Positions 17,747 through 54,437 of a stretch of 64,000 nucleotides of DNA are shown here, in pieces (position 1 is the stretch's first letter; every line of letters starts with the position of its first letter). Under the pieces are notes generated by a model. That model did no database searches, was not told where the DNA came from, and saw only the letters and a list, made by a program, of their open reading frames with translations. A program made the position numbers and the translations under genes. The stretch comes from a virus: IMG/VR virus record IMGVR_UViG_3300028883_000005, positions 1 through 64,000 of that record; one strand, given 5' to 3'.

Positions 17747-19290
17747 TATACACCAGAAACAAGATAAGCTCTGAAAGAGAAAAAGATTTAATGATCGGTC
17801 TTATAGCCGATACCAGGTTCTGTAGGGAGGTTATGCCCTCAGTAAAAAAGGACCTTCTTCAAGTAGATCAGTTTAAAGTCATATTGGATTGGATTCAAGA
17901 CTACTACAAAAAATATGATGAGGCTCCTAAAGAAAATATAGAGAAAATCTACATCGCTAAGAGACAAGAATTAGATCAAGCCTTAGGAGACAACATAGAA
18001 ATATTCCTAAGAACTTTATCTAAAAAGCTCGAAGGGATGGAGAGCTTCAACACAGATTATTATTCAGATGAAAGCATTAAGTATCTCAAGGAAAGGAACC
18101 TTCAGGTTTTACTTTCCAGAGCTCAAGGTCTTATAGATATAGGTAATGTAGACGAGGCAGAGCAGGTTTTTTCTACTTATAGGAAGGTTGCTAGAACAAC
18201 GAGCAAATGGATAAACCCACTATCTAAAGAGTTTGTAGAATCTGTTCTGTTTAAAGAAGAGGAATATCTATTTCAGTTCCCTGGAGCAGTGGGTGCTTTA
18301 CTAGGTAAGCTCAAGAGAAAACAGCTCGTAGCTGTTTTAGCACCAATGAAAAGAGGAAAGACCTGGTGGATGCTCGAAGCTTTATGGTTGCTCGCCTCTA
18401 ATCACCTCAAAGCTGTTCTAATTTCCCTAGAAATGGATGAAGAGGAAATAGGAAGCAGAAGTTTTAAAAGAATAACCGGAATGGATTATGAGAAGGAAGA
18501 AATTACAATACCCGTTTTCGACTGTTTGAGAAACCAAAAAAACAGATGTAATCTGCCAATAAGAGAATCCAATTCTGATGGCCTTCCTTTAGATGAACTA
18601 GATATGCCTCCAGCATATAGCGAAAAGTACAATCACACCCCCTGCTCTGCATGTAGAGATAAAAAAGATGGAAATTTCATACCTGGTATTTGGTATGTCA
18701 AAAGGACTTCTCCTAAAATAGATTATTCTAATCTGACTTCTACTTTGAAATCGTTTGAAGAAAGTTTTGGAGATAATATACGGATAATTAGTTATCCTAT
18801 GAATACTGCTAATATAAGCGATGTAAAAAGAGATTTGGATCTTCTAGAGTATACAGAAGGGTTCGTTCCTGATGGCATTGTTTTGGACTATGCAGATATT
18901 TTAGGACCTGAAGATTCTAGATTGGTAGGAAGAGATAGCATCAACCAAACTTGGAAGATGCTGAAAAACCTAGCTCAAGAGAGAAACTCTTTAGTAATCA
19001 CGGCAACACAAAGCAATAGAGGTAGCATGGATAGAAGGAGGGTTAAGCCTACGGATACTAGTGAGGACATTCGAAAGCTAGCCCATGTGAACTTAATGGT
19101 ATCTCTTAATCAAACTCCTAGGGAAAAGAGAAGAGGATTAATGAGACTAGGAGTATCCGTAGCTCGTGGTGTGGAATTTGACGAGCTACAAGAGGTGCTT
19201 GTAGTTCAGGAACTTTCAATTGGTCAGCCCTTTTTAGATTCTGAAGTGCCTGGCTTTTTAGAAGATGAAGGAGAAAATCATGAAGATTAG
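17743..19290 (+). CDS. DnaB-like replicative helicase, 515 aa
   Basis: RecA-fold ATPase with Walker A APMKRGKT (200-207), a following LISLEMDEEE (H1a), Walker B IVLDYADIL around D382, and a TATQSNRG motif H3-like stretch. An insert carries four Cys (about 261, 269, 301, 304) in CLRNQKNRC and CSAC, a likely zinc site absent from bacterial DnaB. The N-terminal 150 residues are helical. It unwinds the fork with the primase at 15430. Start at the ATG at 17743, overlapping the previous stop. Confidence 0.85.
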   Translation: MIYTRNKISSEREKDLMIGLIADTRFCREVMPSVKKDLLQVDQFKVILDWIQDYYKKYDEAPKENIEKIYIAKRQELDQALGDNIEIFLRTLSKKLEGMESFNTDYYSDESIKYLKERNLQVLLSRAQGLIDIGNVDEAEQVFSTYRKVARTTSKWINPLSKEFVESVLFKEEEYLFQFPGAVGALLGKLKRKQLVAVLAPMKRGKTWWMLEALWLLASNHLKAVLISLEMDEEEIGSRSFKRITGMDYEKEEITIPVFDCLRNQKNRCNLPIRESNSDGLPLDELDMPPAYSEKYNHTPCSACRDKKDGNFIPGIWYVKRTSPKIDYSNLTSTLKSFEESFGDNIRIISYPMNTANISDVKRDLDLLEYTEGFVPDGIVLDYADILGPEDSRLVGRDSINQTWKMLKNLAQERNSLVITATQSNRGSMDRRRVKPTDTSEDIRKLAHVNLMVSLNQTPREKRRGLMRLGVSVARGVEFDELQEVLVVQELSIGQPFLDSEVPGFLEDEGENHED

Positions 19291-19648
19291 TGTATGCAAA
19301 ATATTTGAGTTTCACGCCGCACATCACCTCCCTCATTACTCTGGCAAATGTAGAGAGGTTCATGGTCATTCCTACACACTTGAGATTGAGATAAGTGGAG
19401 AGGTGGGCGCTTGGACTGGAATGATATGCGACTTCTCTGAGCTTAAAAAGAAAGTTGAGGGTGCTATTATTTTCCATTTAGATCACAAAGATCTGAATAT
19501 ACTGATGGAAAACCCCACCGCCGAAAAAACTGTGGAGCTTATTGTGAGTAGGAAAAATCAGTATGTTCCAGACGGTGCAGAGCTAGAAAGGGTTCGTCTT
19601 TACGAGACCCGCACAAGTTTTGCAGAGTGGAGGAGGGAACAACAATGA
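19280..19648 (+). CDS. queD: 6-carboxy-tetrahydropterin synthase (QueD)
   Basis: 122 aa. FHAAHHL at 11-17, C24 as the catalytic Cys, HGH at 28-30 for zinc with the upstream His, LDHKDLN at 67-73 and the ETRTSFAEW end, all as in QueD of the T-fold family. It converts dihydroneopterin triphosphate into 6-carboxy-tetrahydropterin, the second step of preQ0 synthesis. AAGGAG lies six bases before the ATG. It opens the deazaguanine cluster, overlaps queE (ATGA), and follows the replicative helicase closely. Confidence 0.9.
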   Translation: MKISVCKIFEFHAAHHLPHYSGKCREVHGHSYTLEIEISGEVGAWTGMICDFSELKKKVEGAIIFHLDHKDLNILMENPTAEKTVELIVSRKNQYVPDGAELERVRLYETRTSFAEWRREQQ

Positions 19649-20328
19649 ACAGAGGTAAAACAGACTTTTGCTCAGCTCCTTTATGGGAGGTTTTCACTTC
19701 TATAGACGGTGAAGTGAACAATATAGGTCAAGGGGTTTTGAGTAAATTCATAAGAGTAGCAGGATGCAATCTCCACTGCTCTTGGTGTGACACTAAAATA
19801 ACGCAAACGGTTCCTAAAGAAGCTTCTTGGGAAAACTCTGCAAGTATGATGAGATCTGGTATTATAGGCAGAGACCACGTTCAGAAATACACCATCACAG
19901 GGGGCGAGCCGCTTCTTTACCCAGAGTGGGTTAGAGAAGTGGTGAACACTCTAGTAGCTCTGGGTAAGAGCGTGTCTGTAGAAACAAACGGTTCTAGAGT
20001 TCTAGTACCAGGATTAGACTGCTGCTGGGTGATAGACGATAAGCCGCCTTCTTCAGGTCATCTGGGTAGTTTTGTATACAGCAATTTGTGTACGATGAGA
20101 GAAGGAAGAGACTGGATTAAAATTGTAATAGCAACACAAGAAGATTTAGAATGGGCTATCGAGGAGACTAAATATATAAGTAGCAGGATTGGTAAGGCAA
20201 ACATCGCTTGGAGCTTATCTGAAACTTGTGAGGTTGAAGCTAAACATATCATTAGCGTTTTACTGGAAGAAAGCCTGCATTATGTTAGAATTAATGCCCA
20301 GCTTCATAAGTACTTAGGATTATTGTAA
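19645..20328 (+). CDS. queE: 7-carboxy-7-deazaguanine synthase (QueE, radical SAM)
   Basis: 227 aa. The cluster-binding CxxxCxxC is C41, C45, C48 (CNLHCSWC), followed by TITGGEPLLY, a SVETNGS strand and DDKPPSSG, all typical of QueE. It contracts the ring of 6-carboxy-tetrahydropterin to 7-carboxy-7-deazaguanine. The N-terminal VFTSIDGEVNNIGQG fits the family's substrate side. Translationally coupled to queD. Confidence 0.9.
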   Translation: MNRGKTDFCSAPLWEVFTSIDGEVNNIGQGVLSKFIRVAGCNLHCSWCDTKITQTVPKEASWENSASMMRSGIIGRDHVQKYTITGGEPLLYPEWVREVVNTLVALGKSVSVETNGSRVLVPGLDCCWVIDDKPPSSGHLGSFVYSNLCTMREGRDWIKIVIATQEDLEWAIEETKYISSRIGKANIAWSLSETCEVEAKHIISVLLEESLHYVRINAQLHKYLGLL

Positions 20329-20343
20329 ATAAAAATCTAAAGA

Positions 20344-20378
20344 TTTATCTTGCAAACCGCCTAATTGCTTGTTACATT
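20344..20378 (+). promoter_or_regulatory. TTTATC-family promoter 5
   Basis: TTTATC (20344-20349), TTGCAA (-35), 17 bases, TACATT (-10, 20373-20378). It restarts transcription inside the deazaguanine cluster, before the GC-rich gene at 20484. Confidence 0.75.
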
Positions 20379-20394
20379 GTAAGTAACTTTTAGG

Positions 20395-20450
20395 AGGGCA
20401 ATCTCTTCAGAGAAGAGTCGAGGCAGCAGAAATACAATCCTCATCGCCCT
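20395..20450 (+). promoter_or_regulatory. Possible folded leader of the 20484 gene
   Basis: AGGGC (20395-20399) can pair with GCCCT (20446-20450), enclosing a good hairpin CTCTTC/GAAGAG (20403-20417) and a weaker GAGG/CCTC one (20420-20442). The leader is about 100 bases long. Support is moderate because the outer and third helices are short. Confidence 0.35.
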
Positions 20451-20483
20451 ATCCTTACTAACTTCATTACAAGGAGGAATATT

Positions 20484-21098
20484 ATGTTGAGCCCAGAATT
20501 CTGCAATGCAACATCCGTTCGGAAAGAGATTGGCGCGCTGAACAAGTGCGGCGTGCTGGCCGAAAAAGTGAAAGCTGTCGGAGTGGCCAAGAAGGAGTTG
20601 GTGGAGTCTTTCCTGAAGGCCGTGGAATCGGTTCCCGAGGGCACCGAGGAAGCCAAGAAGATCCCTGCTTCCGTCATCAAGCTCTACAATGAAATCGTTG
20701 AAGGTGTTGATCCTTCGCCGGAAGAGCAGGAAAAGCTCAAGGCCGCCAAGACCAAGAAGAAGGACGCCAAGCCCCGCGGCCCCAGCAATGAAGCCAAAGC
20801 TCTGGAAATTTTCACCGAATCTTTCAAGGCCGGCCTGGACGACGCAGCAATCAAGGCCAAGATGACCGAGTACTTCAAACCGTACTATGAAGCTCGTGGA
20901 AAGGGGGATCAACCGGATTTCATCGAGAAGCGGGTGGGCATCTATACCAACATTGCCAAGAAGCAATACTTTGCCGCCCATCCCGACGAGGCTCCCAAAA
21001 AAGAGGAAAAGCCTCCGAAGAAGGAAACTGCCAAAAAGGATGCCGCCAAAGACGAGAAGGCCGCCACCGGCGAAGAGGAAGCGCCCACGGAGGGGTAG
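20484..21098 (+). CDS. Lys/Ala-rich probable nucleoid-type protein, 204 aa
   Basis: Residues 1-160 are helical; the last 40 are a disordered Lys/Glu/Pro/Ala tail (KKEEKPPKKETAKKDAAKD, then acidic). The gene is strikingly GC-rich with AAG, GCC and GAG codons, unlike the AT-rich genes on both sides, and has its own promoter, long leader and AAGGAGGAA site, which points to high expression. It sits between queE and folE. A DNA-coating or processing protein is conceivable, but no family is recognised. The folE ribosome site lies in its last codons. Confidence 0.6.
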   Translation: MLSPEFCNATSVRKEIGALNKCGVLAEKVKAVGVAKKELVESFLKAVESVPEGTEEAKKIPASVIKLYNEIVEGVDPSPEEQEKLKAAKTKKKDAKPRGPSNEAKALEIFTESFKAGLDDAAIKAKMTEYFKPYYEARGKGDQPDFIEKRVGIYTNIAKKQYFAAHPDEAPKKEEKPPKKETAKKDAAKDEKAATGEEEAPTEG

Positions 21099-21099
21099 A

Positions 21100-21690
21100 A
21101 TGGACCGGAGCCTAACTGAGCAATATCTTCAGAAGGCTTTAACTGAGGGGTTGGGGCTTGATATTAAAGACCCCAACCTCTCAGGAACTCCTGGGCGCAT
21201 CGCTAAGATGTGGACCCAGGAGTTTTTCTCCTCTTTAGAGCATCCTGAAGGTTTCGACAATCTCACTTCCTTTCCTAATGATAGGGAGTATGATCAAATA
21301 ATCCTATTAGATAAGATCCATTTCGTTTCCATGTGTTCCCATCACTTTCTGCCCTTCGCTGGTATAGCTTGGTTAGGTTATATACCTAAAGGGCAACTCG
21401 CTGGAGCTTCAAAGCCTTCACGCCTGATTAACTTTTACTCCAAGAAACCGCAGCTTCAAGAACACCTCTCTCATGAGATTATCGATTGTTTCAATGAAAA
21501 GATAGAACCTCAAGGATGCATTGTTGTAATGCGTGGTATCCATGGCTGCATGAGTAATCGAGGGGCCCTCCAGTATAATGGAAGTGGTATGACAACCTCC
21601 GCAGTTAGCGGTGTTTTCAGAGATGACAGCAAGGCTAGGTCTGAGGTTATGGACCTAATAAAAATATCCTTAATGATCCACGAATTGTAA
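21100..21690 (+). CDS. folE: GTP cyclohydrolase I (FolE)
   Basis: 196 aa. Zinc ligands C79, H82 and C150 lie in the signature blocks SMCSHHFLPF and RGIHGCMSNRG; GYIPKGQLAGASKPSRL and the QLQEHLSHEI helix are also classic. It makes dihydroneopterin triphosphate from GTP, the entry step for QueD. The frame is open far upstream but the ATG at 21100 has GGAGGGG four bases before it. Supplying a FolE suggests that pathway flux, not just a scavenged precursor, matters to the phage. Confidence 0.92.
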   Translation: MDRSLTEQYLQKALTEGLGLDIKDPNLSGTPGRIAKMWTQEFFSSLEHPEGFDNLTSFPNDREYDQIILLDKIHFVSMCSHHFLPFAGIAWLGYIPKGQLAGASKPSRLINFYSKKPQLQEHLSHEIIDCFNEKIEPQGCIVVMRGIHGCMSNRGALQYNGSGMTTSAVSGVFRDDSKARSEVMDLIKISLMIHEL

Positions 21691-21713
21691 TCCTTCCATC
21701 AGGGGGTCGAAGC

Positions 21714-22064
21714 ATGGATAATAAAATCTACGCTCGAATCATCATTAATTTTCAATTTGAAGCTTTACACTCTTGGCCGGGGTGTTCTCTTTTGGACGTA
21801 AGTTTCCTTAAGAACGCCCATCGCCATGTTTTTCATGTAGAGATGAAAAAATTGGTGATGCATGACGATCGAGATATAGAATTTATACACTTCAAAAGAG
21901 AGGTTTTGAGGTGGGTGAGAGAGAACTGGGAAGAAAAAGATCTAGAATCTAAATCCTGCGAAATGATCGCTACCCATCTTCTTCTCTTATTTGAATGTGA
22001 CTATGTAAAAGTAATGGAGGACGGAGAAAATGGAGCAGAAGTCTTCAAGGATCATAATAATTGA
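21714..22064 (+). CDS. Second QueD-like T-fold protein, 116 aa
   Basis: A strand with NFQFEALHSWP, then FLKNAHRHVFHVEM and HDDRDIEFIHF, and a later SCEMIATHLLLLF with EDGENGA. This matches the PTPS/QueD-like proteins carried by many phages: H19 and H36/H38 could bind metal, while the QueD catalytic Cys context (GKCxxxHGH) is missing. It may act on a pterin or deazapurine intermediate or assist the neighbouring radical SAM enzyme. GGGGGTCGA precedes the ATG at 21714. Confidence 0.65.
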   Translation: MDNKIYARIIINFQFEALHSWPGCSLLDVSFLKNAHRHVFHVEMKKLVMHDDRDIEFIHFKREVLRWVRENWEEKDLESKSCEMIATHLLLLFECDYVKVMEDGENGAEVFKDHNN

Positions 22065-23400
22065 TCCCACTTCAACAGAGTTTAATCGAGGATCATTTTG
22101 TTATTTGCCTTACATCGTTTTTAGTTATTACAAGGATTATTGTGATGCAGAGCTTTGGGAGGACTTCACCGCCGCACAAATTGACAACATCCCTCCTGAA
22201 GATGAAGTCTTGGTTGCTCTTTGGAGTTACCCTCAAGTAGACCTCTGCAAGACAATATATCGCTTCTCTGCCTCTAGGAAAATAAAGTTCTTCGGGTATA
22301 CACCTCTGGTTAAGTGGGCGGGGCTGCCCTTAAAAGTTTTTACTCCCGCTCGTATTAAACAAGGAATCGTAAGTTATGCTAATTATGTATCCCTGGGGGC
22401 TTTCTATCATATCCTTTTGTCAGATTGTGATATGCATCTTAATAAATATGATGGCATTGTGTACCCTTTGTTCTCTTCCTACGGGTGCCCTAGGAAATGC
22501 ACCTTCTGCCCCTCTTGTGTAGCGAGCGAGCATAGAAGACTTTGCATTCATCTAGATGATGTAGAAATTATGCTCAGTACGATGTACAACAGAGGTATTA
22601 GGAATATCCATTTCACCGACGAAGACTTTTTTATGATTCACAAAAGAACTCATGAAGTCTTGAAAATTGCCAAAAGAATAGGTGATTTCAATTTTATAGC
22701 CCTGGCACATCTAGACACATTAAAAAAGTTTGTGGAGGAGTATGGACCAGAGTGTCTGAAAGAATTTGGAGTTAGATTAGTAGAGTTAGGGTTTGAAACA
22801 GCCGATCCTGCTCTAGCTAAGTCCATGAAAAAAGGAAAGTCTCTCCAAGAGTACATCGATGTATACACCGCTGTAAAAGACTACACGGACATTTTCTGGT
22901 TGTGTCTAACTTTCTTTCCTGGGGAGACAATTACAACATTGAATGAAACAGGCAAGTTTCTTAGAGAATACGGAAGTAAGCCTGAAGATTTATACGATAG
23001 AATCAAAACAAACAGTACTGAAGGAGGACTAGGGCAGTTTTTTCAGCCTTACCCTGGGACTCCTGGATTTGAAGACCTTCCTAGTTTAGGTCATCAAATC
23101 GAAGATAGACCTGTTCGCCTCATGCCTAGTTTCCTTCCTGATTCTTTTCTAAACGATGAAATAGAATGGGCATATAAAGACGGATTTCGCAGCACAATAC
23201 CTGATAAAGTGTGGGAATGGACGGAGGTTTATAATCTACCTACAGGAAAAATAATTAAATTTTTAGCATGGGTGCCCCAAAATGTTCGCCAAGCTATTTT
23301 AGATGCGAAGAACAATTGTCATCTTTCCGCAGGCGAGGCAGCAACTTTCATCGCAATCCTAGCGAGACTAGGAATTATCAAAAGTGGGAGGAGATCATGA
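22030..23400 (+). CDS. Radical SAM enzyme of unknown substrate, 456 aa
   Basis: The iron-sulfur motif CxxxCxxC is C153, C157, C160 (GCPRKCTFC), followed by NIHFTDEDF, a VELGFETAD strand and WLCLTFFPGET, as in B12-binding/MiaB-like radical SAM proteins. Residues 1-110 form a Rossmann-like domain (IIIIDPTSTEFNRG, later VLVALWSYPQ) that resembles a degenerate B12-binding domain without an obvious DxHxxG. The C-terminal 100 residues are an extra domain. Wedged between the QueD-like gene (35-base overlap) and the glycosyltransferase (ATGA), it most likely modifies the deazaguanine base or its sugar donor. It is distinct from QueE. Confidence 0.75.
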   Translation: MEQKSSRIIIIDPTSTEFNRGSFCYLPYIVFSYYKDYCDAELWEDFTAAQIDNIPPEDEVLVALWSYPQVDLCKTIYRFSASRKIKFFGYTPLVKWAGLPLKVFTPARIKQGIVSYANYVSLGAFYHILLSDCDMHLNKYDGIVYPLFSSYGCPRKCTFCPSCVASEHRRLCIHLDDVEIMLSTMYNRGIRNIHFTDEDFFMIHKRTHEVLKIAKRIGDFNFIALAHLDTLKKFVEEYGPECLKEFGVRLVELGFETADPALAKSMKKGKSLQEYIDVYTAVKDYTDIFWLCLTFFPGETITTLNETGKFLREYGSKPEDLYDRIKTNSTEGGLGQFFQPYPGTPGFEDLPSLGHQIEDRPVRLMPSFLPDSFLNDEIEWAYKDGFRSTIPDKVWEWTEVYNLPTGKIIKFLAWVPQNVRQAILDAKNNCHLSAGEAATFIAILARLGIIKSGRRS

Positions 23401-24425
23401 AAATTATACTTGTTCCTATAGAGCCTTTTGAAGAGAGATATTCTATCCAGTGGTCTCGTTGGTTCAAAGAGAGCATTTCAAATCTAGATATACCATACAT
23501 AGAAATCTGCCCTGAGCCTCTTAAATCGTATAGAGAGACAGGTGCCTTTTTGGATGTTGTAGGAACCAACTACTTCAAGGCTACCCAACTTCAGATGATT
23601 TGTGATCTGATAGATCGTGGTGAGATTGAGAGTGGAGATGTTTTCTTGTTTCACGATCTTTGGTTCCCTGGTATCGAAATGCTCGCTTATATTAGAGACG
23701 GCATGGGTATGGATTTCAAAATCACAGGCTGTCTTCATGCAGGAACCTGGGATCCTTGGGATTTTCTAAGCCGAAGAAACATGGGGAGGTGGGGCACTTT
23801 ACTTGAAGAGTCGTGGTTTAAGTTTATAGATGCTGTTTTTGTAGCCACAGAATTTCACAAAGAGATGATTCAGTCATACTTTGATAGCCCGATACCAAGA
23901 ATCTACACTACTGGGTTTCCTATTAAAAATGAAGAAGAGCTACCAAATACTGGTAAAAATCAAGTAGTGTTCCCTCACCGTCTAGATAAAGAAAAAAATC
24001 CTGATAGATTTGACAAATTAGAAAAAGCTTTCACTTCAGAATACCCTCTACCTAAGGTGACCTTCCTTAAAACCAAAGAAGCATGTACTACAAAGAAAGA
24101 ATATTATGAGGTGCTGGCTAACTCTGTAGTTTCTGTTTCTTTTGCGAGTCAAGAAACTTGGGGAATCGCAATGATAGAGAGTGTGCTATCTGGTTGTATA
24201 CCATTTGTTCCTAATGAGCTAAGTTATGGAGAATTGTACCCTAAAGAGTTCAGATACGACTATGATTTTTCAGATGATCACTCTTATTTCCTTCTAGCAA
24301 AGAGGATCCATGAGGCTCTTAGGAACACCGAGTACCAAAACATGGTTGAGGATCTGGGTAAAAAATTTATCCTCAAAGGGTCTTTAGCTATACCTAGAAT
24401 GATAGAAATTATTATGGATTTGTAA
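23397..24425 (+). CDS. GT-B glycosyltransferase resembling tRNA-queuosine mannosyltransferase
   Basis: 342 aa. The C-terminal half has VVFPHRLDKEKNPDRF (191-206) for the nucleotide sugar, a KKEYYEVLANSVVSVSFA helix-strand and ETWGIAMIESVLSGCIPFVP (253-272) with the E-x7-E pattern. The N-terminal ILVPIEPFEERYSIQW and the overall layout recall GTDC1/QTMAN (DUF3524), which adds mannose to queuosine in tRNA. A relative in a phage deazaguanine cluster suggests glycosylation of a modified base in DNA or its precursor; this is inference. GGGAGGAGATC precedes the ATG at 23397. Confidence 0.75.
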   Translation: MKIILVPIEPFEERYSIQWSRWFKESISNLDIPYIEICPEPLKSYRETGAFLDVVGTNYFKATQLQMICDLIDRGEIESGDVFLFHDLWFPGIEMLAYIRDGMGMDFKITGCLHAGTWDPWDFLSRRNMGRWGTLLEESWFKFIDAVFVATEFHKEMIQSYFDSPIPRIYTTGFPIKNEEELPNTGKNQVVFPHRLDKEKNPDRFDKLEKAFTSEYPLPKVTFLKTKEACTTKKEYYEVLANSVVSVSFASQETWGIAMIESVLSGCIPFVPNELSYGELYPKEFRYDYDFSDDHSYFLLAKRIHEALRNTEYQNMVEDLGKKFILKGSLAIPRMIEIIMDL

Positions 24426-24470
24426 AATTTAGCCGCATGTGCCATTACCCCGGCATGAAAGGAGTGGGTT

Positions 24471-24731
24471 GTGCAATTCATAGAAGACACACAAGGATTA
24501 GACCAGGTCATAGAATACTGGCACGGATGGTATTGGTGTAGGTTTGCATTGGGCCAAGCGCTGCTATCAAAAGTTGACCAAATTTGCAAGGAATACCCGG
24601 AAGCTGAAACGATTGGCGATTTGCCAGGTGCCATCGGTCTTGAATGCTGTGAAATGCTTGATATAGCGTTTCGGCAACAAGAGATTCTTACGCATGAAAA
24701 TATTCCAAACCCCGGCACGACCATCAGTTAA
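24471..24731 (+). CDS. Small hypothetical protein, 86 aa (GTG start)
   Basis: GTG at 24471 behind AAGGAGTGGGTT. Helical and acidic, with IEYWHGWYWCRFALGQALL. Base composition is more even than in the flanking genes. It begins a run of small accessory genes inserted between the glycosyltransferase and dpdA. No family recognised. Confidence 0.55.
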   Translation: MQFIEDTQGLDQVIEYWHGWYWCRFALGQALLSKVDQICKEYPEAETIGDLPGAIGLECCEMLDIAFRQQEILTHENIPNPGTTIS

Positions 24732-24760
24732 CCCTACTATGCATTAATAAAGGAGAAACC

Positions 24761-24967
24761 ATGGATACCGGAAAAGGATATTTTGAACAATTTGAATCAA
24801 TGGAAGCACTGCATGAGGCGAAAACCAGGTTGGAACAGTTAGGAGGCACAGTGCGCGGTGTTTTTACAGTTGGAGAGGAAATTGAGATAAAGGGTTCACA
24901 CTTCAAGGTGCAGCAGATATGGCCGCGCAAGCTGGTTTTAAAACTGCTTGCGGCAGATCCGCTATAA
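24761..24967 (+). CDS. Small hypothetical protein, 68 aa
   Basis: AAAGGAGAAACC before the ATG. Helix then a small beta domain (GVFTVGEEIEIKGSHFKVQQ) that could be SH3-like. No family recognised. Confidence 0.6.
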   Translation: MDTGKGYFEQFESMEALHEAKTRLEQLGGTVRGVFTVGEEIEIKGSHFKVQQIWPRKLVLKLLAADPL

Positions 24968-25092
24968 CCGACTCCCCAGCCATCGGACCTAAACCGAAAC
25001 AGGGTCACGTTATTGTTTTCGCTAACTATTGGTTTCCTGTTCCTGCGACCTGTTTTTCCGGTGAGGTAAAATTTACTTGATAGGGGAATATA

Positions 25093-25308
25093 ATGAGAAA
25101 AATTAAAAAATGGAAATTAGCATCTGTTTTATATTTACCGTGGATGTGGCTTTTATTTTTTATCTATCATAGTATATGTGAACCATATAGAATTTTATAC
25201 TCATGGGAAAGACCTTGGTGGACAGGAACACCATTAATTTTAACTATAGGAATTTTATTGTTTGTTCCTGTAGCGTCAATATTTTCACTCTATGTTAACG
25301 ATGATTAA
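25093..25308 (+). CDS. Two-span membrane protein, 71 aa
   Basis: Two hydrophobic helices (VLYLPWMWLLFFIYHSI and TPLILTIGILLFVPVASIF) separated by a short aromatic loop, with a basic N-terminus (MRKIKKWK). Probably inner-membrane; function unknown. Confidence 0.6.
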   Translation: MRKIKKWKLASVLYLPWMWLLFFIYHSICEPYRILYSWERPWWTGTPLILTIGILLFVPVASIFSLYVNDD

Positions 25309-25331
25309 CCGCTTGGAAAGGAGGACCGACC

Positions 25332-25493
25332 GTGTTTCACATTCATATTTTAGGAGCCATTGAGAATAAGTGGTTATCTGCGTACAAGGGAAGTGAATAC
25401 ACCAAGCAAGTTTTGGGGGAGTGGTTTGGGTTGCTCAGTCGAGACACTAAGGTTTATATTTGCTACATCAACCATCCCGTATGCCCTGTATGA
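25332..25493 (+). CDS. Small hypothetical protein, 53 aa (GTG start)
   Basis: GTG at 25332 preceded by AAGGAGGACCGACC, one of three identical ribosome-site cassettes in this stretch. Begins MFHIHILGAIENKWLSAYKG. No family recognised. Confidence 0.5.
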   Translation: MFHIHILGAIENKWLSAYKGSEYTKQVLGEWFGLLSRDTKVYICYINHPVCPV

Positions 25494-25508
25494 TAAGGAG
25501 GACCGACC

Positions 25509-25670
25509 ATGAAATGGAAAGAATTTTACAAGCGGCTTTCAGAGTTTAAAAATGCTGTTCGTAATCACGAGAAAAATCCTTCTTTAGAATCCCTGGATAG
25601 GTATAAGTGGGCTTATATTGGAATGAAGCAAGCATTTGAAATATTAAGTAGCGAGGAGGACCGACCGTGA
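25509..25670 (+). CDS. Small hypothetical protein, 53 aa
   Basis: ATG at 25509 preceded by AAGGAGGACCGACC. Helical and basic (MKWKEFYKRLSEFKNAVRNH). Its last codons contain the next cassette, and its stop overlaps the next GTG as GTGA. Confidence 0.55.
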   Translation: MKWKEFYKRLSEFKNAVRNHEKNPSLESLDRYKWAYIGMKQAFEILSSEEDRP

Positions 25671-25999
25671 CAGATTTAATCGAAAAAATACTTTCTGTTG
25701 GAACGATATTCGAAGACGACACACCAGAAAAACCGAGTGTTATCTTTGGACACCCAAGTTCAGAGGAGTGGGTAGATATATTTCTTACTGCAAAGATGCT
25801 CGCGAACACTCGCGCCGCCGATCCTGTGCGGGTGGAGGATAGGTTGCCGGAAACAACTGATGCTATTTTGGTATATTCTCAGAGCAGGAAATCATGGTGT
25901 CGCGGAAGGCTGGTTGAGTTAAACGTAAATCGTTTCTTTGTTGAAGGGTATTTGGATGACAGAGTAACCCACTGGCAACCAATGCCACCAGCTCCATAA
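25667..25999 (+). CDS. DUF551-domain protein, 110 aa (GTG start)
   Basis: The C-terminal 60 residues follow the DUF551 pattern: V-E-DRLPET, a DAILVYSQSRKSWCRGRL strand pair and a final VTHWQPMPPAP. DUF551 is a small phage/prophage domain of unknown function. GTG at 25667 preceded by GGAGGACCGACC. Confidence 0.65.
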   Translation: MTDLIEKILSVGTIFEDDTPEKPSVIFGHPSSEEWVDIFLTAKMLANTRAADPVRVEDRLPETTDAILVYSQSRKSWCRGRLVELNVNRFFVEGYLDDRVTHWQPMPPAP

Positions 26000-26001
26000 A
26001 A

Positions 26002-26036
26002 TTTATCGTTACATGCCTTATTTTTATTGCTATATT
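26002..26036 (+). promoter_or_regulatory. TTTATC-family promoter 6
   Basis: TTTATC (26002-26007) and TATATT (-10, 26031-26036) at the family spacing of 23 bases; the -35 is GTTACA/TTACAT rather than TTG. Precedes dpdA. Confidence 0.7.
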
Positions 26037-26068
26037 GTAGTTAAAACAAAGATTTAGAAGGATTAATA

Positions 26069-27046
26069 ATGGAAATGACCTTGTTTGTAGATTCAGGTGC
26101 TCCCAGTCTTTATAATCAATTTATACGCCGAAACAAAGGCGGTACTTATATGGGAAGCTTTCTTGAAGATAGGAAAAACGATGACTTCAGCTGGATCCAA
26201 AGCAAGGATTTCCAAACCTACCGAAGGAACTATGCTCTTTTTATCAAGAAAAATCTTCAGTTTATTGATTATTATGCAAATTTTGATGTGATTAATAATG
26301 CAGAAGCAACCTGGTCAAATCAGCAATACTACGAGTCTAAAGGATTGAAACCAATACCTGTTTGGCATTATGGAACAGATATGAAGTGGCTGGAAATGTA
26401 TTTGGAAAAAGGATATGACTATATCGCTATAGGGGGTCTGATACCTAACCCGCCTAGAATCTTGCTTCCTGCATTAGACTCTATATGGGGCTCTCTTCTC
26501 ACAGACTCTTCAGGAATGCCTAAAGTAAAAGTTCACGGATTTGCTGTAACTTCTACGAGACTAATTGCCCGCTACCCCTGGTTTAGTGTAGATTCCTCTT
26601 CTTGGGTAAAATTCGGACAATATGGAGTGATATGTGTCCCTCCTAAAAGAGGGGGAAAGTTTGATTATTCTACCACAGCTCATAATATTTTTGTATCCAC
26701 AAGATCGCCCTCCCAAGAAATTACAGGAAAGCACTATTACACACTGTCAGGCGCAGAGCAAGCAATGATTGATCAATACTTGGACCTTAAAGGTCATGTG
26801 ATGGGTAAATCAGAATTTAAAATGGTAGGTTCAGAATACGAACTTAAAGAAGATGAGGTTTTTGTCAGTGGAAGAAAGGGAGATGAGGAAAGAAGGGTGG
26901 AGATTATATTAGAGAGAGGCGTATGCAACGATTATAAGCTCAGGGACGAGCTTAATGTTCAATATTATATAGATTTGCAGAACAGTGTTCCGGAATGGCC
27001 TTGGGCTTTTCAAATTAATCAGAAGAAAGGATTCTTTGAAATATGA
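26069..27046 (+). CDS. dpdA: DpdA-like DNA-guanine transglycosylase, 325 aa
   Basis: The TIM-barrel pattern of tRNA-guanine transglycosylase relatives is visible: FVDSGAPSL (D8), YYANFDVINN, a GLKPIPVWHYG strand, DYIAIGGL, VKVHGFAVTS and RYPWFSVDSSSWV with D175 as the probable nucleophile. The tRNA-enzyme zinc Cys cluster is absent. This is the signature of phage DpdA, which exchanges guanine in DNA for a 7-deazaguanine. With folE, queD and queE nearby it gives a DNA-modification route that hides the genome from restriction. Own promoter at 26002; AAGGA before the ATG. Confidence 0.82.
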   Translation: MEMTLFVDSGAPSLYNQFIRRNKGGTYMGSFLEDRKNDDFSWIQSKDFQTYRRNYALFIKKNLQFIDYYANFDVINNAEATWSNQQYYESKGLKPIPVWHYGTDMKWLEMYLEKGYDYIAIGGLIPNPPRILLPALDSIWGSLLTDSSGMPKVKVHGFAVTSTRLIARYPWFSVDSSSWVKFGQYGVICVPPKRGGKFDYSTTAHNIFVSTRSPSQEITGKHYYTLSGAEQAMIDQYLDLKGHVMGKSEFKMVGSEYELKEDEVFVSGRKGDEERRVEIILERGVCNDYKLRDELNVQYYIDLQNSVPEWPWAFQINQKKGFFEI

Positions 27047-47941: not shown

Positions 47942-48277
47942 ATGACATCCATCGTTTGTTTTTTAGTGAGGGGGTTAGGCCATATTATAGGTGAGGACGG
48001 AGGAAAGGCCCACCACAAAGTTAATATTAGATATCCAGGTCTGGTGATACCAGTAAATTCCGAAGGCAGAGAGGCCTACTATCTGCAGTCTATTATACCT
48101 GGCTTTATGAAAGACCCCTCCACCATCGCACGATCCTTCAATGTACCTGCTGAGGATATAATTATGAAAGGAGATATAGATCCAGATATGGAAAATTTGT
48201 ACATCTCATGGAAAGCAGAGCAAATCCGAAAATGGTCGGGTCTTATAATTTCAGGAGGTCCTAAGCGGGCACAGTAG
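47942..48277 (+). CDS. Hypothetical protein, 111 aa
   Basis: Last gene of the plus-strand block; its end overlaps the end of the opposing glycosyltransferase by 17 bases. AGGAGG before the ATG. Mixed alpha/beta, no family recognised. Confidence 0.55.
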   Translation: MTSIVCFLVRGLGHIIGEDGGKAHHKVNIRYPGLVIPVNSEGREAYYLQSIIPGFMKDPSTIARSFNVPAEDIIMKGDIDPDMENLYISWKAEQIRKWSGLIISGGPKRAQ

Positions 48278-49211
48278 ATTCATCTATCAACCCTTTAGAG
48301 GCAGCTTTTTGCATCCATTCATTAATTGTCATCACTTGCCTAGATTCAATAAGCTGCCTCTGTTTCCACCCTTTCTTTAAAACATCATTCATAATATCAT
48401 CTAGCACGTTTGGTCTACCTTTAGCGATATTCCTAAAAGATTTAAGAACCTCCACTCCACCAAAAAGATAATGAGCTAAAAATCTATTTCTAAGAGAATC
48501 ATCGTAGTTACTACTATATCCTCTTTTTTCACCATGATGGGCGAGACTCCCTTTATTCCAAATCCATTTTTTCTTCCCCAAGACTGCCAGTGTGTAATTC
48601 ATAAAGTGCTCTCCACCAGAGTAAATTCCGAACTCAGGATTCCACCCTCCTGTAAGATCATAAATAGATTTATGAATCATCATACCACAAGTTGACATAC
48701 AAGGCACCTCATAAGGAGTATCAGATTCTCTATACCCTGTAAATCTGTAATCAAAGAAAGCCCCTTTATCCAAGAGAAATTTGTAAATAAGTTTATGCGG
48801 TTCTAGAACCTTATAGTTAATAGGGAGATGAATAGTTCCATCTAATTCTTCCCAATTTTCTTTATAGTATTTAAACATAGAATAAATAGAGTCTCTGGTA
48901 GGAACAACATGAGAATCACAAAAGAGTAGAAATTTTCCAGAGCTTTTACTAATGCCCATCCTTTTAGCGTTCCAATGAGAAAGTTTGGTTTTGTACTCTA
49001 CATATCTAAGCCAAGAACAAACACCAGCACCTGCTCTGACAGCCTCTCCGGATTTATCCTCAGATCTATCCACATAGCCGTCGGCATAGTTATCTACAGC
49101 AATGATCTCAAAATCAACTCTTCCTAACAGCTCCTCTGCTATACTGCGAATTGTAAATATCACTTGAGGATACTCATTCACGAATGGGATTATAATAGAT
49201 AGTTCTGCCAT
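48261..49211 (-). CDS. Family 2 glycosyltransferase, 316 aa
   Basis: SIIIPFVNEYPQVIFTIRSI opens a GT-A fold, FEIIAVDN follows, LLFCDSHVVPT carries the metal-binding D-x-H, and GGWNPEFGIYSGGEHFMNY is close to the acceptor/catalytic block of polypeptide GalNAc-transferase-like GT2 enzymes. It stands apart from the cluster upstream by repeat R4. Converges with the plus-strand block. Confidence 0.78.
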   Translation of the reverse strand: MAELSIIIPFVNEYPQVIFTIRSIAEELLGRVDFEIIAVDNYADGYVDRSEDKSGEAVRAGAGVCSWLRYVEYKTKLSHWNAKRMGISKSSGKFLLFCDSHVVPTRDSIYSMFKYYKENWEELDGTIHLPINYKVLEPHKLIYKFLLDKGAFFDYRFTGYRESDTPYEVPCMSTCGMMIHKSIYDLTGGWNPEFGIYSGGEHFMNYTLAVLGKKKWIWNKGSLAHHGEKRGYSSNYDDSLRNRFLAHYLFGGVEVLKSFRNIAKGRPNVLDDIMNDVLKKGWKQRQLIESRQVMTINEWMQKAASKGLIDESTVPA

Positions 49212-49262
49212 TTCCTTTAGTCCTTATTTATTGTTTAATTTCACAAGCTTACAGTAAATTTT

Positions 49263-49326
49263 AAGACGGGCTCTAAGCATGAATTCTGCACGATTTTTAG
49301 TGTCTTAATGCATTAGTATGCATTAA
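49263..49326 (-). repeat. Dispersed repeat copy R4
   Basis: Reads on the minus strand with the genes: ATGCATACTAATGCATTAAG, then GTGCAGAATTCATGCTTAGA and GCCCGTC. It separates the GT2 gene from the sulfotransferase. With R5 it flanks a six-gene block in direct orientation. Confidence 0.85.
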
Positions 49327-49334
49327 ATTTATAC

Positions 49335-50003
49335 CTATAAGCGATAACCATATTTATAAGCTACCTTCTTCAATTGAAGGGCTAGCCTTTTGTTTTCAGA
49401 TTTCAGATCTTCAAAGGTTAATTCCGGATTAAATATTTTTCTTTTAGGGGTAGTGTGAACTTTTTGGCCTAGACTTTGTATTTTTTGATACATTTCTTCA
49501 GAATATTTTAGATTCACTCCCTTGCAGAACTTATTTACTTTACCTTTATATTTAAAATCCTCAACCTTAATTGTATAATCAAAATTATAATTCTTTTTAC
49601 ATTCCCTATTCCAAATTATCCACCAAATTAAAACATAAGAAGGAGTTCCTGACAAGTGGTTGTATTGAGGAAAGCCTCTTCTAAAAATATCTAACCCAGA
49701 TCTTTTTCGGGTTAAATCTATATTATACATCGAAGAGATAACCTTAACAGGATTCCTGACTAGATGAATATACTTCACATCATGACCTGCCATAATTTTA
49801 TGGGTAGCTCTAGATCTATCTTTTTCACCTAAATACCAAGAACAGATGCCATTTTTGTTGAACCCTTCATGACCCACCTTATAACCTAAAATCTCAAAAA
49901 CCTTAGTCATATAAAGGGTTCCGCTTCTTCCGCACCCAACCACCACAAACTTTTTAACTTTAGGGTCTTTAGATAGCTTATTTAGATTAGGTATCATCCT
50001 CAT
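49335..50003 (-). CDS. Sulfotransferase-family protein, 222 aa
   Basis: VVGCGRSGTLYMTKVF (22-37) is the 5'-phosphosulfate loop of PAPS-dependent sulfotransferases, and IHLVRNPVKVISS (79-91; R83, S90) is the 3'-phosphate-binding motif. A catalytic acidic or His residue is not certain. It probably sulfates a glycan built by the neighbouring glycosyltransferases. Start overlaps the previous stop (ATGA), with AAGG upstream. Confidence 0.72.
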   Translation of the reverse strand: MRMIPNLNKLSKDPKVKKFVVVGCGRSGTLYMTKVFEILGYKVGHEGFNKNGICSWYLGEKDRSRATHKIMAGHDVKYIHLVRNPVKVISSMYNIDLTRKRSGLDIFRRGFPQYNHLSGTPSYVLIWWIIWNRECKKNYNFDYTIKVEDFKYKGKVNKFCKGVNLKYSEEMYQKIQSLGQKVHTTPKRKIFNPELTFEDLKSENKRLALQLKKVAYKYGYRL

Positions 50004-50656
50004 GGTACCTTACTCATCTCCCTTCTGTATATTTCTTTCTCTTTGTTCATTAAATATCTAATTTCCATATTAGATCTTAAGGTTTCCCCTACTTTATGAG
50101 TGATTGGATTATATAAATCTTTAAACCAAAAGTATTTATTCCTCTTGGTAAAGTTCCAAATCCAATCGTCTCCGCAAAAGAACTTTAAAGAGGACGGAAT
50201 ATGTGGTATTTTCTTCACCAAAGAGTTTCTAATCGTAAAAGCCCATCCTTCTCTTTTCTTCATTCCCTTAATCTTAACTTCAGGTGTTACGGTAGATAAA
50301 GCGGACTTTGAGGTGACATTAGGGCAAATAACCCCTGCTCTGGATCTTATATTAAAGCATTTTTCTATCTTATAGAAAAATAAAGGTGTGATTTCTATAT
50401 CATCGTTCAAGATTGAAAGATGATTTCCTTCTTTACACTTTCTAAGTCCATAATTCCAAGCGGGGTTCACTCCTACATTTTTCTTGGGTGTTACTATTTT
50501 AACAGGGTATTCATAAGCCCTAGAGAAATTTAAAGCTTTCTCTGAGTTATTAATTACAGTTACCCTATAAGGTAAGGTTTCGTTTTTGTTTATCTGGGAC
50601 AGAACAGCTAGGACTAGGTCTTCATTCATAGTAGGTATTAGAACTTCTATGCTCAT
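50000..50656 (-). CDS. Glycosyltransferase (GT2-like), 218 aa
   Basis: IEVLIPTMNED, VTVINNS, KNVGVNPAWNYGL and LSILNDDIEIT (the DxD-like site) form the GT-A core; FFCGDDWIW is the later acidic block. Donor and acceptor unknown. Overlaps neighbours on both sides by one to four bases. Confidence 0.72.
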   Translation of the reverse strand: MSIEVLIPTMNEDLVLAVLSQINKNETLPYRVTVINNSEKALNFSRAYEYPVKIVTPKKNVGVNPAWNYGLRKCKEGNHLSILNDDIEITPLFFYKIEKCFNIRSRAGVICPNVTSKSALSTVTPEVKIKGMKKREGWAFTIRNSLVKKIPHIPSSLKFFCGDDWIWNFTKRNKYFWFKDLYNPITHKVGETLRSNMEIRYLMNKEKEIYRREMSKVP

Positions 50657-51387
50657 TATATCTTTTCCCAGCAGGTGAAGTGTTGAGGGTTTCCAGACTT
50701 ACGCCATCCATTTTCTTCCATCCATTTTCTTCCTATATCTTCTAAACAAGGAGGTGCCTCCTGGGGGTGGTAAATTCCAAACCTCCATTGATTTAAATAA
50801 TCACCCATCCATCTTCCTTTTATTTGTTTCTCAGGATTATGAACAGGATCTATTCTAGCTATAGCCCCTTTAGCAAAAGCTGTCCTGTTTAGAGAAGGAT
50901 GACCACACCACCCTGCAGCACCTTTATCTGCTTGAGGGCACTCAAAAAACTTACCGTTCCATAAAAAGAAATGCTTCCAATTCTTTAAGTGTTCTGAAGT
51001 AGATCTAAATTTACTCAATCTCAGATGAGCTAGAGTTATATTATCCTCCATTATTTCAATCATTTCATTGAAATCTAGTTTTCTTTTTAAGAGCCAATCT
51101 TCTTCTAAATGAAATAAATAAGGAGCCCTAGCTAAATTCCATACGGTTAGGAAGGCTTTAGGAAAAAAAGCTCTACTAGGGCGAGTGGCTTTGATCTCTT
51201 TGAAATATTTAGAACATACCCTAATAACATCCTTATAGCGGTTATTTTCAGATCCTACAGGGTCTATATTAATTACCAATCTTAGATCACCTGAAAACCC
51301 TGAGAATAGGTTTTCAAAAAAAGACTCTAAAGTTCTATCGATTAGCTCTGGTCTCCAGGTGGCGGTCATAGTGACATCTACTTTCAT
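50656..51387 (-). CDS. Glycosyltransferase-like protein, 243 aa
   Basis: VTMTATWRPELIDRTLESFF, LRLVINIDPV, and a FHLEEDWLL acidic site match a GT-A fold; FKEIKATRPSRAFFPKA links them. Later SKFRSTSEHLKNWKHFF and WCGHPSLN blocks may shape the acceptor pocket. AAGGTG precedes the ATG; overlaps the next gene (ATGA). Confidence 0.6.
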   Translation of the reverse strand: MKVDVTMTATWRPELIDRTLESFFENLFSGFSGDLRLVINIDPVGSENNRYKDVIRVCSKYFKEIKATRPSRAFFPKAFLTVWNLARAPYLFHLEEDWLLKRKLDFNEMIEIMEDNITLAHLRLSKFRSTSEHLKNWKHFFLWNGKFFECPQADKGAAGWCGHPSLNRTAFAKGAIARIDPVHNPEKQIKGRWMGDYLNQWRFGIYHPQEAPPCLEDIGRKWMEENGWRKSGNPQHFTCWEKI

Positions 51388-51971
51388 TTCTTCACCTTTT
51401 CAAATATTGCTGCATTTTTATGGAAAGCCTCTATTCCTGGCTTAAGAGCCCAAGGACTTAAATACTTTTTGAATAAATTTGTAAGAACAGGTCTGTACTC
51501 ATATCCTTTATTTCTAAACTTTTCTATCCAGTACTCCAAAGGTTGGCAATTTACATGATAATGGCCCTTTTGACCAGGAGGTGCGGCGGAAAGGATTAGT
51601 TTATCAGACAATTTAATCAAATTGTCTACTAAAATATCAGAGTACTCCTTCTCTATATGCTCCATTACTTCTAAGCAAGAGCAGAGGTCCATGCGGAGGA
51701 GGCCTTCTAGAGGCTCTCTCAGGTCTCGTATTAGAATATTATCTGTCATTCTAAATTCCCAACAATGAGTGCTGCCTTCAATTCCCCAAGAATAGTGACC
51801 TCTGCGGCCCATTTCAAACACCAAATCTCCAGTAGCACACCCTACATCTATATAAGAGAAAATATCTGGGTATAATTTCTCGAAGGCGTCTGCTACATGG
51901 AGTGCTCTCCAATTGAACTTATACCTTCTGGTAAAGAAAGCCCGTTTATAAATATCCACCAAAGGCTTCAT
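51384..51971 (-). CDS. SAM-dependent methyltransferase, 195 aa
   Basis: SYIDVGCATGDLVFEM is motif I, DLCSCLEVMEHI matches the post-motif region, and LILSAAPPGQ follows. It is the paralogue of the methyltransferase at 1881-2435 (shared CATGDLV and LSAAP). Within this cluster a sugar or small-glycan O-methylation is likely. Overlaps the glycosyltransferase upstream by 26 bases. Confidence 0.72.
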   Translation of the reverse strand: MKPLVDIYKRAFFTRRYKFNWRALHVADAFEKLYPDIFSYIDVGCATGDLVFEMGRRGHYSWGIEGSTHCWEFRMTDNILIRDLREPLEGLLRMDLCSCLEVMEHIEKEYSDILVDNLIKLSDKLILSAAPPGQKGHYHVNCQPLEYWIEKFRNKGYEYRPVLTNLFKKYLSPWALKPGIEAFHKNAAIFEKVKK

Positions 51972-53067
51972 TGCTATACCTCTCTTTGATAAAATCCAGA
52001 GAAGGTGCTGATTCTCCGAAACTAGAAAACAATCTGCCCATCGTAGGAATTAAATAATCCGACCCTGATGTCTTATTATACCAACTGGTGGCTTTGTTAC
52101 GATCTTTAGGACTGTAATGCTTTAGAATGTCTCTAAACAAACGGGCTACGGAACCGAAATCGTCTTTATTTTTGGGAACGGTACAATACTTTCCATAAGT
52201 GATATAAGGAGAATGATAAGCAGGTGTTCCTATGATTAATTGACAGCCGCATCTTAAGGCTTCAATAGGTCCTCTATCGTTTTGGCCTGAAGTGCCTAAA
52301 TGAACGAACACTTTAGAAGAGTTGAGAATTACATTTAGATCTGATCTAGGAACCATACCAGGCATGTCAACACCAAGGTCTTTGGCTAAACCCAAAATTT
52401 TGTTTGTTTGGGTGCTATGACGAACAGCCCCAGGCATTATACATTTAGGAATTTTACCGTATATTTTTTTGTACTCCTCTAGAGCTCGAATTGTTCTCCA
52501 CTGACCTTTTCTATCGTGTATAAAACTAGCACCTATGCAAAAGTCATATATAGGATTAGATTCTGGTATGAATCTAAATATTTCTTCGTGAACTGGTTTA
52601 GAGAAAGGGAACCAGAGTCTGTTTTCTGTATCTATTCTCAGTTCCAAATCTAAATCGTCTAAAATAGCATCCCACCAGGGCCATCTTTGTCTTCCTGTGT
52701 TAGCTGCATAAAGAACTAACCAGTGCTTTCCCTTCTTAGAGGCTAACCAATCATGCCAACCTCTAAAGCCCCCTCGAACAAACAAAACATCTCCTTTTCT
52801 TAGAACTTTATCTACTTCGGAGATGTGGGGCACTACAAACCCTAAATTACCATTGAGTTTGAATCTTCCGCATCCTCTAGAAGATTCTATTATCAAAAGC
52901 ATATCTTTAATGAATCCTTTAGCCTTCATTTCTTTTAGCATCCAGTAAAGGCCTTCGGACTCTAAGCCACCGTTGTCTAGATACTTATTTTGGGCAGTAG
53001 CTTTGGGATTCCAAGTAGGAATATCATTAGTTCCACCGGTGGTCATAAACAAAAACACTACTCTCAT
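51946..53067 (-). CDS. GT-B (GT4-like) glycosyltransferase, 373 aa
   Basis: GASFIHDRKGQWRTIRALEE and the C-terminal KVFVHLGTSGQNDRGPIEAL with CGCQLIIG form the donor-binding half of GT4 enzymes. The N-terminus is a Rossmann-like domain starting at the ATG at 53067 (ATGA overlap); an ATG nine bases upstream lies too close to its AAAGG. Confidence 0.7.
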   Translation of the reverse strand: MRVVFLFMTTGGTNDIPTWNPKATAQNKYLDNGGLESEGLYWMLKEMKAKGFIKDMLLIIESSRGCGRFKLNGNLGFVVPHISEVDKVLRKGDVLFVRGGFRGWHDWLASKKGKHWLVLYAANTGRQRWPWWDAILDDLDLELRIDTENRLWFPFSKPVHEEIFRFIPESNPIYDFCIGASFIHDRKGQWRTIRALEEYKKIYGKIPKCIMPGAVRHSTQTNKILGLAKDLGVDMPGMVPRSDLNVILNSSKVFVHLGTSGQNDRGPIEALRCGCQLIIGTPAYHSPYITYGKYCTVPKNKDDFGSVARLFRDILKHYSPKDRNKATSWYNKTSGSDYLIPTMGRLFSSFGESAPSLDFIKERYSNEAFGGYL

Positions 53068-54326: not shown

Positions 54327-54361
54327 AAGGCCCTCAAGGCTAATGATTGTTTTAGCAGTTT

Positions 54362-54393
54362 GCTTAGAGCCCTTTTTAAGACGGGCTCTAAGC
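54362..54393. other. Perfect 11-bp inverted repeat at the R5 boundary
   Basis: GCTTAGAGCCC (54362-54372) and GGGCTCTAAGC (54383-54393) are complementary, with a 10-base spacer. The second arm belongs to repeat R5; the first is an extra inverted copy of the repeat end found only here. Confidence 0.75.
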
Positions 54394-54437
54394 ATGAATT
54401 CTGCACGATCTTTTTGCTACTAATGCACTTGTATGCA
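54378..54437 (-). repeat. Dispersed repeat copy R5
   Basis: Reads on the minus strand: TGCATACAAGTGCATTAGTA, GTGCAGAATTCATGCTTAGA and GCCCGTC. The first 45 bases nearly equal R2. It lies upstream of the sugar block whose other end is marked by R4. Confidence 0.85.

Follow-up and report, generated by a model that had tools for sequence, protein, structure and literature searches.

A phage gene cluster predicted to place a glycosylated 7-deazaguanine in DNA

The IMG/VR virus record IMGVR_UViG_3300028883_000005 carries, within its first 64,000 nucleotides (the whole stretch analysed here, hereafter the window), a cluster of deazaguanine genes in which three further genes lie between folE and dpdA, encoding a T-fold protein distantly related to QueD, a second radical S-adenosylmethionine (SAM) enzyme and a GT4-like glycosyltransferase (GT). 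From these genes we infer, with a probability of roughly 60%, that the phage builds a 7-deazaguanine, glycosylates the base and places it in its own DNA. The odds appear slightly better than even that a large and diverse set of phages likewise carries glycosylated 7-deazaguanine in DNA, a new class of hypermodification with a T-fold protein, a GT4-like enzyme and an interchangeable radical SAM enzyme as its characteristic components.

In the proposed pathway FolE, QueD and QueE, which are established enzymes, would take GTP to 7-carboxy-7-deazaguanine (CDG) and no further towards preQ0. The T-fold protein would then convert CDG to 7-deazaguanine, most likely by decarboxylation, and the radical SAM enzyme would alter the base or the sugar by deoxygenation, oxidation or a similar reaction. 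DpdA, a member of an established family for which the deazaguanine would be the presumed substrate here, would put it in place of guanine in DNA. Either before or after this exchange, the GT4-like enzyme would transfer a sugar to it from a nucleotide-sugar of the host. The modification would probably serve to shield phage DNA from host nucleases.

Comparative evidence ties the additional genes to this pathway. When the GT alone was used to scan IMG/VR, 44 contigs were recovered, several of them near-duplicates, and in all 44 the gene lies at a deazaguanine cluster. DpdA is present in 43, the remaining contig ending before the DpdA position; profiles detected the T-fold protein in every contig except those truncated within the GT gene, and the other deazaguanine genes occur in most, usually in the order QueD-QueE-x-FolE-Tfold-radical SAM-GT-DpdA. 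Recurrence of this gene set across the 44 contigs, retrieved with the GT as sole query, excludes chance association, and because the GTs share only about 38 to 52% identity with the window GT, their linkage to the cluster is old. Scanning with an alignment of the radical SAM enzyme gave 32 loci, with the GT in all 32, the T-fold protein in 31 and DpdA in all but three, which end first. Relatives of this enzyme were retrieved by alignment query only; a single-sequence scan of viral contigs gave no match and a tblastn search of phage isolates found none. The complete T-fold alignment proved too divergent to scan with, and a closer subset used as query yielded at least 595 confirmed stretches in IMG/VR; among 79 further T-fold loci that were kept, 58 have the GT, always on the same strand and mostly within 1.4 kb. 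The assignment of the three extra genes to a deazaguanine DNA-modification pathway, made previously from the nucleotide sequence without database searches (the sequence-only reading), is thus strongly supported.

In nine contigs that lack the window-type radical SAM enzyme, the cluster includes a radical SAM protein with a SPASM domain instead, and in three others it has a shorter radical SAM protein. Searches of phages PA5oct, ACP17, X1 and BUCT-ZZ01 and of contigs L032 and L039 revealed no second radical SAM enzyme. Because it is replaced by other families or not found in some lineages, the radical SAM step appears to be accessory and to have been filled independently by several lineages, with the T-fold protein and GT forming the core. 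This division into a widespread core pair and a lineage-restricted, replaceable radical SAM enzyme went unnoticed in the sequence-only reading, as did the absence of QueC described below. The core pair occurs in the cultured phages PA5oct, ACP17, Phosso, X1 and BUCT-ZZ01 (L046, L048-L051), whose T-fold proteins, and mostly their GTs too, are annotated as hypothetical. Cultured Pseudomonas aeruginosa phages carrying the pair are PA5oct, Paride and MIJ3.

T-fold proteins are also encoded without a nearby GT, in Cellulophaga phage phiST, RHph_I1_18, Bakedbeans and Roos, so the T-fold step would seem to work sugar-free. Together with the other glycosyltransferases that the window phage encodes near its tail genes, this would suit an arrangement in which the DNA holds an unglycosylated deazaguanine (dDG or dCDG) and the targets of the GT and radical SAM enzyme lie elsewhere, for example in a virion protein or at the cell surface. 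We regard such an arrangement as unlikely, given that the GT family, in widely differing phages with either of two DpdA types, is found almost only with deazaguanine genes, that the genes overlap within one operon, and that the tail-region glycosyltransferases form a separate cluster.

For a glycosylated product, as for an unglycosylated one, the identity of the precursor depends on the early enzymes. The zinc-binding His residues of QueD, its catalytic Cys and its Asp-His pair are all intact, and H20, C29, H33, H35, D73, H74 and E114 (numbered from the ATG at 19265) are invariant in the family. QueE matched the NCBIfam QueE-type models at about 5e-30, under the models' cut-offs, and FolE is 34% identical to phage 9g FolE over 160 aa. 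QueC, the presence of which marks DNA modification of the preQ0 type, was not found in the record, which is probably complete. It is absent from 29 of the 31 records examined, the other two giving a sub-threshold match (X1) and a clear one, in the distant Xanthomonas phage PhiXhv-15, where it forms a Gat-QueC fusion. Because QueC is lacking, synthesis is expected to end at CDG, the shared end product of FolE-QueD-QueE, and CDG is the expected precursor, not preQ0 or preQ1.

The T-fold protein matched no Pfam family at its cut-off, and its only family match is an unnamed PHROG. Its kinship with QueD, recognized in the sequence-only reading, is borne out by profile comparison (hhalign, E 2e-6) and by conserved residues; among solved structures its closest relative is a PTPS-like protein of Pyrococcus (E 0.005). 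In the family alignment a zinc His triad (H19, H36 and H38) is invariant and the purine-binding substrate Glu of QueD is kept, the catalytic Cys and Asp-His pair of QueD are gone, and there are new invariant motifs, R..EF (R53..EF57) and SCE. This residue pattern would be expected if the enzyme bound CDG or a closely related compound but catalysed a reaction other than that of QueD, and the conversion of CDG that we propose is most likely decarboxylation to 7-deazaguanine. A CDG decarboxylase in phages, DpdL, was reportedly proposed by Cui et al. in 2023, and we take its possible identity with the T-fold protein as a lead, not a result. In Cellulophaga phage phiST the T-fold relative adjoins QueD-QueE-FolE.

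Insertion into DNA would fall to DpdA, which is homologous to the DpdA of phage 9g (35% identity over 196 aa, E 6e-38), an enzyme that modifies DNA (PMC6884629). The motifs DVINN, KVHGFA and SVDSSSW are intact; D73, H156 and D175 (in SVDSSSW) are invariant, and H156 aligns with 9g His196 in KVHGF. Sequence searches matched DpdA to no solved structure. Where isolate phages carry the T-fold/GT pair, a different TGT-like protein is encoded beside it; in PA5oct, ACP17, X1 and BUCT-ZZ01 this protein showed no significant hhalign similarity to the window DpdA and owes its TGT/DpdA-like label to one annotated member together with shared DSGG-Q and Asp motifs. Because of this different neighbour in the isolates, the pair appears to work with two kinds of transglycosylase.

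The AlphaFold2 model of the GT (pLDDT 92.5) adopts a GT-B fold whose closest matches are MshA, glycogen synthase and BshA (E 2.6e-12), with about 13% identity to MshA and BshA, and the E-x7-E motif of retaining GT4/GT-B enzymes is conserved (E253 and E261). The sequence-only reading had assigned the enzyme to the queuosine-mannosyltransferase (QTMAN) kind and had suggested searches for the dpdA, queD and QTMAN families; the first two were matched, but no QTMAN model in Pfam or NCBIfam matched the GT at E up to 1, and we rejected that assignment for an MshA/BshA-like one. The sugar-bearing product that the same reading foresaw is well supported, if indirectly, by the binding of the GT to deazaguanine genes and by its neighbours in bacteria. 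In Azospirillum isscasi (L171 7481-9074) and Pseudooctadecabacter jejudonensis (L178 7362-9047) a GT relative lies directly 3' of a Vut_1 (YhhQ-type) transporter gene, Vut_1 being the family to which the queuosine-precursor transporter YhhQ belongs. These relatives appear to link the GT to deazaguanines outside phages. The Azospirillum locus also encodes a B12-binding radical SAM protein about 5.5 kb downstream.

Two phages show other arrangements of glycosyltransferases. Xanthomonas phage PhiXhv-15 (L052 6621-9855) encodes the Gat-QueC fusion, a PIG-L deacetylase and a distant GT relative in a row, possibly a separate glyco-deazaguanine pathway that adds N-acetylglucosamine and then deacetylates it. 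In Synechococcus phage BUCT-ZZ01 (L051 6004-7347) a different second glycosyltransferase (Glyco_trans_1_4, 3e-5) lies between FolE and the DpdA-like gene and perhaps adds a second sugar.

A glycosylated deazaguanine might in principle stay a free small molecule or enter tRNA. The nearest GT folds, MshA and BshA, take small acceptors, the GT is not basic, and for HuiG, which belongs to the pathway of a deazapurine antibiotic, transfer of N-acetylglucosamine to the 2-amino group has been proposed (PMC7439116). We nevertheless consider a destination other than DNA quite improbable, as the pathway is invariably accompanied by a DpdA of the 9g family, which modifies DNA, and the cluster lies among replication genes (DnaB-like helicase, clamp and polymerase). 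Glycosylation of the free base ahead of DpdA would be compatible with our pathway.

Several points weigh against a glycosylated deazaguanine in DNA. Neither CDG nor 7-deazaguanine offers an evident hydroxyl group to which a sugar could be joined. The radical SAM step cannot make the sole acceptor everywhere, as PA5oct, ACP17, X1 and BUCT-ZZ01 have the T-fold protein and GT but yielded no second radical SAM gene; the sugar might be attached at the carboxylate, the C7 side, the exocyclic N2 (as in huimycin) or a group that the radical SAM enzyme introduces. Proteins of the GT family lack basic character (median isoelectric point 6.2 versus 9.2 for DpdA), which hints at a GT acting on the free base. 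The idea of a decarboxylase depends on the reported DpdL proposal, and a GT relative with 40% identity in Paenibacillus polymyxa ISL-58 (L170 8001-9020) has no visible deazaguanine genes around it. By eye, that locus is a biosynthetic cluster with a mannose-1-phosphate guanylyltransferase-like gene, an acyl carrier protein and a pyridoxal phosphate enzyme.

The second radical SAM enzyme belongs to the superfamily by its intact cluster motif, CxxxCxxC (C153, C157 and C160), invariant in 20 sequences. Its best solved match is AprD4, at 2e-12 by sequence and 3e-15 by fold (structure model pLDDT 89.6), with about 12-14% identity in the fold alignment. AprD4 is the radical SAM 1,2-diol dehydratase of apramycin biosynthesis and acts on an amino-sugar unit of paromamine. 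The fold resembles both AprD4 and B12-type enzymes; the B12-binding domain PF02310 gave no match in the enzyme at E up to 1, in a library that detects PF02310 in another protein, and no partner reductase was recognized. Because PhpK- and HpnJ-type NCBIfam models outscore the AprD4 model on this protein, AprD4-like chemistry is one option only.

Pairwise distances among radical SAM enzymes track those of DpdA, the T-fold protein and, without outliers, the GT beyond the phage background. Given the clamp, the partial correlation is 0.75 with DpdA (0.44 without three outliers) and 0.48 with the T-fold protein (0.40 without them); the value of 0.64 with the GT was obtained without outliers only. 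At matched GT similarity, DpdA similarity is 101-211 bits in loci with the SPASM protein and 159-431 bits in loci with the B12-type enzyme (Mann-Whitney p 0.009), in a comparison of 5 versus 12 non-independent loci chosen post hoc. These patterns weakly hint at a role of the radical SAM enzyme in shaping the base handled by DpdA. They bear on a variant of our pathway, and compatible with it, in which the enzyme tailors the sugar and not the base, producing a deoxy-sugar by AprD4-like diol dehydration. AprD4 as the best solved match by both sequence and fold speaks for such a role, as does the lack of the step in some phages with a GT, which would suit a late decoration. The closer correspondence with DpdA, in both enzyme type and distances, hints instead at a base-level step before insertion, and with the better scores of the PhpK- and HpnJ-type models it leaves sugar tailoring possible at somewhat less than even odds.

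The phage DNA glycosyltransferases known so far mostly use hydroxymethylated pyrimidines as acceptors, and the sugar could accordingly be sought on a hydroxymethyl pyrimidine as in T-even phages, with the deazaguanine genes as unrelated neighbours. We rejected this candidate as very improbable: a gene of the thymidylate-synthase fold, which would encode the base hydroxymethylase, is lacking in 14 of 16 records, this one included, and the linkage to deazaguanine genes is conserved.

The record is 82,575 bp long and has a 127-bp direct terminal repeat at its ends, on account of which it is probably a complete genome. QueD, QueE, FolE, the T-fold protein, the second radical SAM enzyme, the GT and DpdA (Table 1) are all encoded on the plus strand, with ribosome-binding-like sequences 5' of the genes. 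Family searches confirmed folE, queD, queE, dpdA and the radical SAM domain within the stretch given in the sequence-only reading, and the overlaps it described among the three extra genes are exact, with 35 bases (22030-22064) shared by the T-fold and radical SAM genes and 4 bases (23397-23400) by the radical SAM and GT genes. Four small open reading frames lie between the GT and DpdA.

Table 1. Genes of the deazaguanine cluster, in window coordinates
Feature	Position	Strand	Supporting match
QueD (6-carboxytetrahydropterin synthase)	19280..19648	+	PTPS 1.2e-29
QueE (7-carboxy-7-deazaguanine synthase, radical SAM)	19645..20328	+	phrog_2076 8.4e-30
Lys/Ala/Glu-rich, fast-evolving protein	20484..21098	+	no family match
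FolE (GTP cyclohydrolase I)	21100..21690	+	PF01227 8.4e-47
T-fold protein, distant QueD paralogue	21714..22064	+	phrog_17812 6.4e-26
Second radical SAM enzyme, AprD4 / B12-type architecture	22030..23400	+	PF04055 8.3e-13
GT4-like glycosyltransferase, GT-B, retaining-type	23397..24425	+	AlphaFold2 fold, E-x7-E
DpdA, DNA guanine transglycosylase of phage 9g family	26069..27046	+	phrog_887 6.6e-36

The gene between QueE and FolE has a GC content at third codon positions of 0.68, versus 0.31-0.45 in the other genes tested, which suggests very high expression. Its relatives (clusters c33/c18) occupy the equivalent position at most loci that have the window-type radical SAM enzyme, several of them with a raised value too; its membership of the pathway is uncertain. 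Reading of the translations indicates primase-like and DnaB-like helicase genes upstream of the cluster, and downstream lie genes for a processivity factor, a polymerase, a clamp loader, a UvsX-like recombinase and a ligase. A second glycosylation cluster, on the minus strand near the tail genes (48261-54395), encodes two GT2 enzymes, a GT4-like enzyme and a protein weakly matching methyltransferases; its products may modify the virion or add to the sugar on the DNA.

To our knowledge, the glycosylated bases known from DNA are pyrimidines and the deazaguanines known from DNA carry no sugar; a limited literature search, which is not proof of absence, found no glycosylated deazaguanine in DNA. 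If our reading is true, a glycosylated deazaguanine would combine two great strategies of phage hypermodification, it would predict new resistance to both restriction and CRISPR nucleases, and functions would be assigned to protein families now mostly labelled hypothetical.

The individual components have partial parallels. HuiG of huimycin and dapiramicin biosynthesis is a glycosyltransferase encoded beside folE, queD and queE homologues, with a proposed sugar transfer to a 7-deazapurine (PMC7439116); huimycin, however, is a free antibiotic made from preQ0, with its sugar on the 2-amino group and a reported cluster that has no DpdA. QTMAN likewise places a sugar on a 7-deazaguanine in nucleic acid, but in tRNA and on the cyclopentene-diol of queuosine, and no model of its type matched the present GT. 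With MshA and BshA the GT shares the GT-B fold and the retaining-type E-x7-E motif at low identity, its acceptor here being presumably a deazaguanine, and the radical SAM enzyme resembles AprD4 in sequence and fold at similarly low identity and without a recognized reductase partner. The phages with dDG or dCDG have in common with this one a pathway that ends at CDG without QueC, whereas Cellulophaga phage phiST differs from it in that neither a glycosyltransferase nor a second radical SAM enzyme was seen. Phages 9g, CAjan and Rosebush (FolE-QueD-QueE-QueC-DpdA) share with the present phage the early enzymes and the 9g-type DpdA; in contrast to them, it has no QueC or amidotransferase and carries in addition the T-fold protein, radical SAM enzyme and glycosyltransferase.

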